Shown here: one piece after another, positions 36,864 to 41,291 of the stretch
Layout: the number at the start of each line of letters is the position of its first letter
Numbering within the stretch: position 1 is the stretch's first letter
From: Haladaptatus sp. DJG-WS-42
Lineage (GTDB): Archaea; Halobacteriota; Halobacteria; Halobacteriales; Halococcaceae
Assembly: GCF_037198285.1 (NCBI RefSeq)
Contig: NZ_CP147243.1
Span: 2,162,422-2,226,421 of the forward strand
Direction: 5' to 3'
Length of the DNA stretch: 64,000 bases
The notes under the pieces: model-generated
Database searches by the model: none
The model's input: only the letters and a program-made list of their open reading frames with translations
What the model was told of the DNA's origin: nothing
Translations under genes and position numbers: made by a program

Positions 36864-37661
36864 ATGCAGGTGTTCGGCCTTCTTGGCAACCCAGTCACCC
36901 ACTCACTCTCGCCACCGATGCACGAGGCGGCGTACACAGACCTCGGAATCGACGCGCGCTACGTCACCTTCGAACCCGCGCCAGAAGACCTCGAAGCCGC
37001 CATTCTCGGCGCACAGGCACTCGGCATCTCGGGTCTCAACGTGACGATTCCGTTCAAACAGGACGTCCTCAACTTCGTTGAACCCGACGACCTCGCCGCG
37101 CGTATCGGCGCGGTCAACACTATCGACTTCTCGGGTGAGACGCCAACGGGCCACAATACGGACGCAATCGGTGCGGTGCGCGCCCTGCGCGACCACGACG
37201 TAACACTCGACGGAACAGCTGTTGTCGTCGGTGCAGGAGGGGCCGGGCGTGCAATCGCCTTCGGCCTCGCAGACGAGGGGATGAGCGTGCGAATCGCCAA
37301 CCGCACCGAGCAGAAAGCCCACGACCTCGCCGCCGCCGTCCCGAACGCGACCGGTCATGGCCTCTTCGACCTCGACACGCTGCTCGAAGCTGCCACCGTC
37401 CTCGTGAACGCGACGAGTGTCGGCATGGAAACCGACGAGACGCCGGTTCCGAGCACCGCACTCCACGACGGGCTGGCCGTGCTCGATGCAGTATATCGCC
37501 CGCTCGAGACCCGCCTCCTGCGCGACGCTCGCGCCGTTGGTGCGACGACGGTCGATGGCGCGTGGATGTTGCTCTACCAGGGCGTCGAAGCCTTCGAGCG
37601 GTGGACAGGCCGCGACGCGCCCGTTTCGGTCATGAATATCGCGTTACGTGAACGTCTTTAA
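36864..37661 (+). CDS. aroE: Shikimate dehydrogenase
   Basis: 265 residues starting [34 protein letters not shown] at 36864 (a GTG at 36852 is a less likely start). The shikimate-binding [10 protein letters not shown] and [12 protein letters not shown] (catalytic Lys) motifs, [11 protein letters not shown], and the NADP-binding [19 protein letters not shown] are all present. It reduces 3-dehydroshikimate in the chorismate pathway. The gene is 58 bases after the antiporter and upstream of the chorismate-using pabB-like gene, so it may feed the downstream three-gene set. Confidence 0.95.
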
Positions 37662-37686
37662 GTGCGACGCCTTTCTATCGGTTGTC

Positions 37687-38277
37687 ATGGGTCTGTTTGA
37701 CTGGCTGAAATCGGTACTCGGAATGAACGGGTCGCGCCCTGACCAGCGCGACAGCGAGCGTGTCGGCGGTTCAAGCGCTAACCGTGCAGACACTTCTTCT
37801 CACTCCTCCCCCGCGGCGTCGACTGAGACGACGGCTGCGGCCTCCACAGAGACGCTGACGGACGAGGCCGACGAGGAAGTCGGCGCGGCCGAACCCGCAG
37901 AGGCGGTCGCCCCTGCGGACACGAGCACGGAGGTCTCGGAGGCGGAACCAATCCGGGAGGCGGCAGAAACAAGCGACGATGCGGCCGCCGAAGAAACGGA
38001 CGCGGCAGCCTCCACGGAGACGCTGACGGACGAAGCCGACGAGGAAGTCGGCGCGGCCGAACCCGCAGAGGCTGCCGGTCCAACCGGCGGCGACGCTGGC
38101 GAGCCACTCACCGTCATCAAGGGCATCGGCCCGGCCTACGCAGACCGCCTCGAAGCGGCTGGTATCGGTTCGATTGCCGACCTCGCCGCGGCCGACCCGG
38201 GCGAAATCGGCGCGGAAATCGACGTCTCACCAAAGCGCGTCGGGCGCTGGATTGAGCGCGCGAAACACCGCGTCTAA
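37687..38277 (+). CDS. Helix-hairpin-helix protein with duplicated acidic linker
   Basis: 196 residues from [28 protein letters not shown] at 37687. The central region is an acidic, Ala/Thr-rich low-complexity linker in which a 23-codon unit ([23 protein letters not shown]) occurs twice, at residues 51-73 and 107-129. The C-terminal domain ([56 protein letters not shown]) is a helix-hairpin-helix of the DUF4332/Rad51-N type. It probably binds nucleic acid or a protein partner. It lies in the run between aroE and the pabB-like gene. Confidence 0.85.
37837..38073 (+). repeat. Two near-identical 69-bp units inside the HhH gene
   Basis: Units at 37837-37905 and 38005-38073 encode the same 23 residues and differ only at a few third codon positions, implying recent duplication or gene conversion inside the gene. 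Confidence 0.85.
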
Positions 38278-38326: not shown

Positions 38327-39805
38327 ATGACTGGGCCAACCGTCGTGACCGACAGGGCCTCGTTCCGGGCAACGGCGCGCGACGCTCCTTCTGGGGCGCG
38401 CGTGCCGGTCGAGGTACAGGTCACGGTTGCCGACCCGTTTCTCGCCTATCGCCGCGCGCGTGCAGACACAGACGGTGTGTTTCTGGAAACGACTGGCGGG
38501 CAAACTGGTTTTGGCATGTTCGCCACCGACCCCATAGACCGCCTCGAAACGACGTTTACTGGCTATTCTCCCGACGGCTCGGCTTCGCTCACTGCGCTCA
38601 CCGACCGCCTCGACTCTGAGACGCTCGTCCGCGGCGACTGCGACGTACCCTACCCCTGTGGCGCGCTCGGCTGGCTGTCGTACGACCTTGCCCGCGAACT
38701 CGAACGCCTTCCCGATACAACCGCAGACGACCGCGGACTTCCCCAACTCCAAGTCGGCGTCTACGACCGCATTGCCTCGTGGGAGGAGCCCCACGAGGGC
38801 GACGTGACGCTCCGCATCACCGCGTGTCCGACGATTGGCGACGACATAGACGCCGCCTACGACGCGGGAACAGAACGGGCGATGGAACTCGCAGACGCAT
38901 CACTCTCGGGCGACCCGAGCGTTTCGCCCCCGGCTCCGACGACCGAGCCGGTCACGTTCGAATCCGACTGCGACCGCGACGAGTTCGCGGCGCAGGTTCG
39001 CCGCGTGAAACGCTACATCCGCGACGGTGACACCTTCCAAGCGAACATCTCCCAACGCCTGTCTGCGCCAGCCACGATTCATCCCGTCGAGGCGTACGCC
39101 GCCCTTCGTCGGGTGAACCCCGCACCGTACTCTGGGCTCATGGAGTTCCCCGGCGTCGACCTCGTGAGCGCGAGTCCGGAACTCTTACTCGATGTAGAGG
39201 GTCGTCACGCGACGACCGAACCGATTGCGGGGACTCGCCCACGGGGCCACACCAAGGAAGAAGACACCCAACTCGAAGCCGACCTGCTCGGTGATGAAAA
39301 AGAGCGCGCGGAACACGCCATGCTCGTCGATTTGGAGCGAAACGACCTCGGCAAAGTGTGCGAGTACGGCACGGTCGAGGTGAGCGAATACCGCCGTGTC
39401 GACCGCTATTCAGAGGTTATGCACCTCGTTTCGCTCGTAGAGGGAACGCTGCGCGAGGACGTGACGCTCGCGGACGCCGTCGCCGCTGTGTTCCCCGGCG
39501 GAACCATCACGGGCGCGCCGAAACCCCGGACGATGGAGATAATTGAGGAGGTCGAAACCACCCGACGTGGCCCCTACACCGGGAGCATGGGCGTGTTCGG
39601 CTTCGATGGGAAGGCTACCTTGAACATCATCATCCGCACGCTCGTCCGTCACGCAGACCGCTACTACCTGCGCGTCGGCGCAGGCATCGTCCACGACTCG
39701 GTCCCAGACCGCGAATACGACGAGACGCTCGATAAGGGCCGGGCGCTCGTGAACGCCATGGACGAGGCCCTCGGCGAACAGGCTGCGATGGAGGTCGAAG
39801 AGTGA
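38327..39805 (+). CDS. pabB: Chorismate-binding enzyme: aminodeoxychorismate synthase component I (PabB) or anthranilate synthase (TrpE)-like
   Basis: 492 residues starting [38 protein letters not shown] at 38327. The chorismate-binding core has [38 protein letters not shown] at residues 299-307, [41 protein letters not shown] and GRALVNAM. Classic PabB carries Lys where the Ala of PIAGT stands (TrpE type), so sequence alone leans towards TrpE. The neighbours decide otherwise: the gene is followed by an amidotransferase subunit (ATGA overlap) and a class IV aminotransferase, the pabB-pabA-pabC set for p-aminobenzoate. The N-terminal Trp-sensing LLES motif is degenerate. Confidence 0.82.
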
Positions 39806-40425
39806 TTCTCGTCATCGACAACTACGACTCGTTCGTCTACAACCTCGTGCAGTACGTTGGAGAGGCGGTCACCTCTCCATGCCCTGCGGAGAGATCGCAG
39901 GATGTCGGCGAATTTCATTCGGACGTCCTCGTAAAGCGCAACGACGCGCTCACCGTTTCTGACATTCGCGACCTCGACCCCGACGGCATCGTCGTCTCGC
40001 CCGGCCCGGGAACGCCTGAAGACGCGGGCATCTCGATGGCAATCTTTGCGGAACTCGACTACCCGACGCTCGGCGTCTGTCTCGGCCATCAGGCGCTCTG
40101 TGCGGCGAACGGCGCGTCCGTGGGCCACGCGCCCGAGGTCATCCACGGCAAGTTCTCGCAGATGGTACACGACGGCGAAGGCATCTATCGAGGACTTCCG
40201 AACCCACTCAAAGTCGGGCGATATCACTCGCTCGCAGTTCGGCGCGAAGACCTCCCCGACAGCCTCACGGAGACGGCCTACACCGAGGACGAACACGGCG
40301 TCGTGATGGGCGTTCGCCACACCGAAAAGCCCCACGAGGGCGTCCAGTTTCATCCGGAAAGCATCCTGACCGACGCGGGCAAGCAGTTGATTGCGAACTT
40401 CATCGACCAATGTACTTCCACGTAA
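39802..40425 (+). CDS. pabA: Glutamine amidotransferase subunit (PabA) with a 16-residue insertion
   Basis: 207 residues. Class I amidotransferase motifs are intact: [29 protein letters not shown], the nucleophile Cys in [14 protein letters not shown], and the His-Glu pair in GVQFHPESI. It supplies ammonia to the PabB-like subunit. Its start overlaps that gene by ATGA. Between QYVGE and [11 protein letters not shown] there is an extra 16-residue segment ([16 protein letters not shown]) that breaks the usual helix-turn-strand join and ends with a second VGE. It is encoded by two tandem hairpins. The reading frame is preserved and all catalytic residues remain. Confidence 0.88.
39858..39901. 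repeat. Tandem hairpins forming an in-frame insertion in pabA
   Basis: Hairpin 1: TGGAGAGG (39858-39865), loop CGGTCA, CCTCTCCA (39872-39879). Hairpin 2: CCTGCG (39883-39888), loop GAGAGAT, CGCAGG (39896-39901). They lie within the 48-bp extra segment of the gene (39865-39912). The ends carry near-identical GTTGGAGAG and GTCGGCGAA codons. Confidence 0.85.
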
Positions 40426-41291
40426 ACGGCGAGCTCGTTCCCGAAGATCAGGCCACCGTCTCGGTGCGTGACCGCGGATTCATGTACGGCGACGCCGCCT
40501 TCGAGACGCTTCGCGCCTACGGCGGCGAGGTGTTCGAGTGGGACGCCCACGCCGACCGCCTTTCCCGGACGTGCGAGACGCTGGCGCTCGACCACGGACT
40601 GTCTGACGACGACTTACTCGACCGGATTCACGAAACGTTGGAGGCGAACAACCTGACTGAAGCCTACGTCAAACTCTCCATCTCGCGGGGCGTCCAACCC
40701 GGCAAGCTCACTCCCAACCCCGAAATCGACCCAACCGTGGTCGTCATCGTCAAAGAACTGCCACGCGGCGGCACGACGGGCACGCCAGTCTGGGCCGACC
40801 CCGCCGTCGTCCAGACGGTGAAAACCCGACGGATTCCGAACGAGGCGATTCCCGCCTCAGCGAAGACGCACAACTACCTCAACGGGATTCTCGCGCGTCT
40901 CGAACTCCAAAGAGCATCCTCAGACACCTACCAACCAGACGAAGCCCTCATCCGCGACGCCGATGGGAACATCGCGGAGGGCGCGACGAGCAACGTGTTT
41001 TTCGTCATCGACAACGCGCTCCGGACGCCCGCGACGACCGGTCCCGTTCTCCCCGGCGTCACCCGCGATGTGGTGCTCAAACTTGCCCGCGAGCAGGGGA
41101 TTCCGGTCGAAGAAGGAACCTACACGCCCGACCAACTCCGCCGCGCGGACGAAGCCTTCCTCACGAACACGACGTGGGAACTCCGTCCGATTTCCACGGT
41201 AGACGGCATCGAAGTCGGCGGCGGCCCCGTCACCGACCTGCTCTCGCTCGTTTTCAACGAATACGTCGAAGCACGACACTACGGCGAGTGA
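40410..41291 (+). CDS. pabC: Class IV aminotransferase fold enzyme (aminodeoxychorismate lyase-like)
   Basis: 293 residues, PLP fold type IV. Motifs: SVRDRGFMYGDAAFETLRAY, VKLSISRGV, the PLP-Lys region AIPASAKTHNYLNGILARLEL (Lys in SAKTHNYL), and EGATSNVFFV, VLPGVTRDVVLKLAREQGIPVEE, FLTNTTWELRPIS. Sequence alone does not separate 4-amino-4-deoxychorismate lyase (PabC) from branched-chain aminotransferase (IlvE), but the third position in the pab-type operon and the start 16 bases inside pabA favour PabC. It would release p-aminobenzoate and pyruvate for folate synthesis. Confidence 0.82.
   Translation: MYFHVNGELVPEDQATVSVRDRGFMYGDAAFETLRAYGGEVFEWDAHADRLSRTCETLALDHGLSDDDLLDRIHETLEANNLTEAYVKLSISRGVQPGKLTPNPEIDPTVVVIVKELPRGGTTGTPVWADPAVVQTVKTRRIPNEAIPASAKTHNYLNGILARLELQRASSDTYQPDEALIRDADGNIAEGATSNVFFVIDNALRTPATTGPVLPGVTRDVVLKLAREQGIPVEEGTYTPDQLRRADEAFLTNTTWELRPISTVDGIEVGGGPVTDLLSLVFNEYVEARHYGE

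Follow-up and report, generated by a model that had tools for sequence, protein, structure and literature searches.

A double-hairpin insert in a haloarchaeal pabA gene is probably a degenerate member of a dispersed family of minimal insertion elements

The Rickettsia palindromic elements (RPE) are elements of ~150 bp, divided over ten families, that are found in phase in unrelated housekeeping genes, where they encode a conserved peptide that is apparently tolerated by the host protein (PMC10969869). Another group of short hairpin repeats is formed by the GTAG- and CGTC-tagged REPs, some of which lie in genes, including those for DNA ligase and tRNA synthetases. The CGTC families seem to be without a dedicated transposase, and the REPs that were surveyed are mostly intergenic and bacterial, with an unpaired GTAG or CGTC as their tag (PMC3733652). 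From Haloquadratum walsbyi three kinds of transposase-free small mobile repeats are known (PATEs, SMRs and MITEs), of which the PATEs are reported to have near-terminal palindromes and to cause no target duplication (PMC3119063).

The 48 bases described here, located within a haloarchaeal pabA gene, are in our estimate with a probability of about 0.8 a degenerate, fixed copy of a dispersed haloarchaeal family of minimal insertion elements comparable to the RPE. A palindromic element of the Rickettsia type, inserted in phase, had been suggested for this gene in an earlier note, and the finding of related in-frame elements in many unrelated genes supports that suggestion. In its way of working the family appears to resemble the RPE, in that it inserts in phase into unrelated genes and encodes a conserved peptide. 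Unlike the RPE, however, its members are only 45-51 nt long, consist of two tandem hairpins, are archaeal and encode an acidic peptide. With the REPs the family shares the form of a short hairpin repeat with intragenic copies, but its copies end in (G/A)AC and coding copies dominate our sample. Moreover, the G that a CGTC tag requires as the next base (on the other strand) was present in only 51% of 80 copies, which does not agree with such a tag. The elements are also shorter than SMR-A (about 110 bp), and the in-frame insertion into coding sequence is a trait of the present family for which the accessible part of the Haloquadratum description has no counterpart (PMC3119063).

The features of the pabA locus are collected in Table 1. 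The genes pabB, pabA and a class IV aminotransferase-like gene form a single run of overlapping genes in the window (the whole 64-kb stretch of DNA that was analysed), and by its position the last of these is probably pabC. The in-frame insert of 48 bp that the earlier note had reported in pabA, with two hairpins of 8 and 6 bp and a second VGE behind it, was confirmed. The hairpins together cover 44 nt, and the 3' end of the insert reads GAT, at a position where the family mostly has (G/A)AC. The same note had placed the insert in a tolerated turn between a helix and a strand. In a structure model of PabA (mean pLDDT 79.7) the sole segment with a pLDDT below 50 comprises residues 24-38, which are predicted to have helix 9-24 on one side and strand 42-46 on the other, as would suit a surface loop that tolerates an insert. 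Taken alone, the hairpin pair is only mildly unusual: in the 64-kb window 8 hairpins with stems of at least 8 bp were observed versus 9.3 in shuffled sequence, and 1 tandem 8+6 pair versus 0.25 expected. The significance of the insert therefore comes from comparative evidence. Elsewhere in the window, an 85-nt direct repeat (88% identical; 37825-37909 and 37993-38077) within ORF 37648-38277 doubles a 22-residue acidic peptide.

Table 1. Features of the pabA locus and of its insert (positions in the window)
Feature	Position	Strand	Remarks
pabB	38327..39805	+	directly 5' of pabA, overlapping; TIGR01824 PabB-clade2 437 bits (cut-off 409)
pabA	39802..40425	+	207 aa; GTG start overlaps pabB stop; product aminodeoxychorismate/anthranilate synthase component II, glutamine amidotransferase (TIGR00566 trpG_papA 216 bits, cut-off 121; PDB relatives 8rp1, 1qdl)
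TAC (Tyr18)	39853..39855	+	5' flank of the insert
48-nt putative insertion element GTTGGAGAGGCGGTCACCTCTCCATGCCCTGCGGAGAGATCGCAGGAT	39856..39903	+	16 extra residues, in frame after codon 18
Left VGE copy (GTTGGAGAG) of imperfect direct repeat	39856..39864	+	overlaps left arm of hairpin 1
Hairpin 1 TGGAGAGG-CGGTCA-CCTCTCCA	39858..39879	+	arms 39858-39865/39872-39879; 8 bp, 6-nt loop
Hairpin 2 CCTGCG-GAGAGAT-CGCAGG	39883..39901	+	arms 39883-39888/39896-39901; 6 bp, 7-nt loop
Right VGE copy (GTCGGCGAA)	39904..39912	+	native codons 3' of the insert; native in the empty allele
Class IV aminotransferase-like gene	40410..41291	+	ORF overlaps pabA 3' end

A model trained on pabA copies only (R1) found its strongest matches all in pabA, as a consequence of that training; its weaker matches lay in other genes with the same peptide tail and pointed to the family. 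Among 392 Halobacteria genomes, 281 had a match of E 0.003 or lower to a covariance model (R2) built from 11 copies, all outside this pabA site; in a negative control of 1.26 Mb from low-copy genomes (the window and stretches of G000, G001 and G002) the best E of the model was 0.09. The hosts include ValS, TrpG (at another site), TrpA, DNA ligase, DapD and acyl-CoA dehydrogenases, and furthermore an RsmB/F-type methyltransferase, a Dna2-like protein, histidine kinases with tandem copies, and others. The names of DNA ligase, DapD, Dna2 and RsmB/F are backed by Pfam and several of the others were read from the sequence. In a deeper scan of eight genomes, the copies with E up to 0.01 among 150 candidates scored per genome numbered 28 (G346), 18 (G302), 16 (G072), 15 (G316), 14 (G235), 13 (G278), 11 (G226) and 4 (G250), the weakest of which may include chance matches. 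R2 also recovers most of the pabA-site copies: the inserts at L222, L226, L229, L232, L234 and L273 were found at E 7e-9 to 6e-8, and those at L144, L275 and L139 at about E 1e-5.

Copies of the family differ in sequence because the stems are kept by compensatory change and not by sequence identity. In the non-pabA set 12 double-changed cells were counted versus 3.7 after shuffling, and in 38 copies with less than 85% identity 116 versus a shuffled maximum of 59 (500 shuffles), with 91% of the cells paired versus 70%. Many copies have a hairpin 2 of 8 bp with a 3-nt loop, and hairpin 1 pairs in a different register in the pabA copies than in the copies in other genes. In histidine kinase genes L359, L367, L444, L446 and L447 the tandem copies stand directly after the N-box (NLFRNSVEHGSTSSRTESGDSVEHG...), where the first residues of the element peptide are identical to a native-looking SVEHG. 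Double-hairpin copies that are apparently intergenic were seen at L448, L449, L454, L457, L458 and L460; their hairpin 2 stems are longer, some are near-identical within one genome, and they perhaps represent a related intergenic subfamily. An Rfam scan of six loci gave no match at the element, and a BLAST of plasmids and phages with one 61-nt copy returned nothing haloarchaeal. Carriage by viruses was considered and dropped: one pattern had 0 matches and another had three that look like chance. No earlier description of the family was found in the open-access literature (subscription journals were outside the scope of the search), and as far as could be found it has apparently not been reported before.

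The earlier note had proposed close relatives as the place to look for an allele without the insert, and such an allele is indeed present in the congener G002 (same GTDB genus), where pabA lacks exactly 48 nt and reads YNLVQFVGE-FHPD. In sister G001 the pabA insert is present in a diverged form. It is 77% identical to the insert of the window versus 92% for the remaining gene, and the two PabA proteins differ in 7 of the 16 residues of the insert versus 7 of 191 outside it. All of the 11 base changes between the two inserts fall outside the stems (hypergeometric p 6e-4), and the stems of G001 are the longer ones (hairpin 1 of 9 bp with a 4-nt loop, hairpin 2 of 7 bp). The R2 score of the window copy (7.3 bits, E 3.3) is non-significant, yet the match is exactly in register at 48 nt; hairpin 2 of G001 alone reached E 0.006, the top among ~800,000 positions of 400 kb. 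The window copy thus appears to be degenerate and is the weakest link of the comparison, its probable membership of the family following from its orthology to the G001 copy and its ties to the other pabA copies. The expectation of copies elsewhere held for the genes of other genomes, which contain related elements, but not for the window's own genome, in which no second copy, and no identical further copy of the insert, was found. A single weak model match in that genome appears to be native coding DNA, as do the weak R2 matches in G000 and G002, and matches to a hairpin-2 pattern in G000, G001 and G002 showed no excess over the reversed control.

A direct view of an insertion is offered by a TnpB transposon, which contains the element in G302 (three copies) and in Natronococcus sp. 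AD-5, and which is found without exactly 45 nt in Halorubrum salinarum, Haloprofundus sp. MHR1 and Halorussus caseinilyticus (three plasmids). The comparison of filled and empty forms at this one site reveals a clean 45-nt insertion with no target duplication, at most an ambiguous AC; in this the family is unlike the MITEs. The ends of the TnpB transposon were rejected as the source of the element, since the same transposon occurs elsewhere without the 45 nt. At L389, L390, L391 and L392 the element is flanked on one side by the tnpB stop and on the other by a stretch whose similarity to Rfam sot0042 and HgcC is weak (below the gathering scores). Among 80 copies the 5' flank is mostly NAC (A at -2 in 84%, C at -1 in 94%) and the 3' end of the element is mostly (G/A)AC. 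The ends of IS200/IS605 elements have hairpins, make no target duplication and are preceded by 5' sequence similar to the 3' end of the element itself. The present family is similar in its subterminal hairpins, in the lack of target duplication and in the likeness of flank and 3' end (AC and (G/A)AC), but it differs in having no linked tnpA and in that some element-rich genomes are without a detected Y1 transposase. Y1-type transposase genes were found in 11 of 16 genomes and not in G346 (28 copies, the richest; 89% complete), G316, G250 and G229. None of the ten Y1 loci checked had an element copy beside it, unlike what is seen for RAYT-associated REPs. The different sites, the different genes, the presence of copies in both orientations in yjbQ and the clean TnpB insertion show that the family has moved.

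In 17 genomes from four haloarchaeal families (f1, f4, f6 and f7) pabA has the same double hairpin at the same position, 3 of the 17 copies being slightly shortened or altered. Conservation in most haloarchaeal PabA proteins, which according to the earlier note would speak against an inserted element, was not found, as the insert is absent from most of them. A short form of the pabA loop (26-27 residues as measured in this comparison) is present in 38 of 104 haloarchaeal loop sequences and the long loops are of several kinds, the window type having ~16 extra residues and two hairpins. In f7 the loop has 12 residues in each of the 20 empty genomes sampled, and five filled alleles exceed this length by exactly 16 aa; in G256 the insert lies within a loop that its genus-mates have insert-free. 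In an alignment of the pabA copies (A1) nine pairs have changed on both sides, with 25 double-changed cells versus 9.4 after shuffling (0/500), and the signal collapses in slid controls. The covariation extends to third-codon positions. On a tree of 79 PabA proteins, made with the loop removed, most filled genes are nested among empty genes of their own genera. Presence and absence of the insert require 13 changes on this gene tree, at least 10 of which are forced by starred branches, with gain and loss being indistinguishable there. Horizontal transfer of whole pabA genes as the source of this scatter was mostly rejected, in view of the grouping of filled genes with empty genes of their own genus; an exception is formed by three g76 copies, which represent a second, divergent pabA. 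In G374, G221 and G210 (L136, L138 and L139) a second, divergent pabA with insert stands alongside an ordinary pabA-like gene.

The pattern at the pabA site requires either recurrent insertion at one place or recurrent precise loss, and the imperfect 9-nt VGE direct repeats around the insert provide a possible route to the latter by slippage. The history could then be one of ancient insertion into pabA, in a single event or a few, followed by vertical inheritance and many precise losses, the element now being immobile. Such a history would agree with the common peptide of the filled f7 copies (YVAEAI.S.GPA..SQDVGE), with repeats that would permit precise deletion and with the window genome holding no other copy, and for the pabA site alone all data are compatible with it. 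As an account of the element it is nevertheless unlikely, given the varied sites and genes, the two orientations in yjbQ and the TnpB insertion.

Of the clearly coding loci 29/33 are sense and in phase 0, in a sample of lower-ranked matches from three genomes; the nominal p of ~5e-19 against 1/6 is too small, since the copies share ancestry. Stops do not account for this preference, because each of the six readings is open in no fewer than 52 of 80 copies. The peptide of phase 0 is an acidic linker (~xEERSSxGSAAEPQN) with a mean net acid of +3.2 and few hydrophobic residues, whereas among the other five readings the net acid lies between +0.7, for a reading with 29% hydrophobic residues, and -4.4. 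Only phase 0 is clearly acidic, and the simplest inference is that selection by the halophilic proteome lies behind the phase. The exceptions are the intergenic copies and those in yjbQ. In G278 (L345) yjbQ has an antisense copy at another place in the gene, where the reading, judged by eye, stays open. In G229 and G250, from two families (L334 and L343, minus strand), a sense copy in yjbQ has an in-frame TAG or TAA in the loop of hairpin 2, the gene being intact apart from the stop of the element.

These two stop-bearing copies and the conserved stems would suit an element that is removed from the mRNA or bypassed by the ribosome, in the way of archaeal introns or bypassing elements, with hairpins that serve the removal. 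We consider this quite improbable: removal would need neither a single phase and strand nor an acidic peptide, no flank-to-flank pairing suggestive of a splicing motif was noticed in an unsystematic look, and in the two yjbQ cases the gene may have been disrupted recently. Least probable of all is an ordinary length-variable loop grown by small duplications, with GC-rich codons giving chance hairpins. In haloarchaeal PabA proteins the length of this loop does vary between 11 and 45 residues, many of the long loops are hairpin-free, and the pair alone is expected at the rate given above. The idea is opposed by the length steps of exactly 48 nt at a single place, seen in four families, by the stem covariation down to third-codon positions and by the recovery of pabA inserts with R2, whose training set came from other genes; the R2 matches together with the exact 48-nt filled/empty pairs already contradict it.

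Our preferred reading, that of a dispersed family of insertion elements, starts from what was observed: the family itself, one clean filled/empty insertion, recurrent gain or loss of the insert in pabA, stem covariation and a bias in strand and phase. An element of 45-51 nt with two tandem hairpins and a (G/A)AC end would insert just after AC, with no target duplication. Genic copies that survive would nearly all be sense and share one phase, since only this reading yields a peptide that is acidic and hydrophilic and that may be tolerable in a surface loop of a halophilic protein. By analogy with the RPE, a selfish or neutral hairpin sequence would thus be tolerated as a protein insert. It seems plausible that the elements are translated, that selection accounts for their phase, and that they move as hairpin DNA by means of a putative trans-acting enzyme, the nearest known logic being a peel-and-paste mechanism like that of IS200/IS605. 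A wider reading, for which we put the odds slightly short of even, is that of a class-wide and still mobile family of exceptionally small protein-inserting elements, in which a putative enzyme acts on the paired hairpins and acidic linkers are continually added to essential proteins.

The conversion of palindromes into protein segments, a phenomenon known mainly from Rickettsia, would hereby be extended to the archaea, and across a whole class. Hundreds of genomes can be compared, and close relatives with a filled and with an empty allele offer a direct approach to the movement of the element and the survival of its frame. The family also raises the question of how DNA ligase, tRNA synthetases and kinases are affected by an acidic insert of 15 residues, and it accounts for some of the variation in loop length among haloarchaeal proteins.
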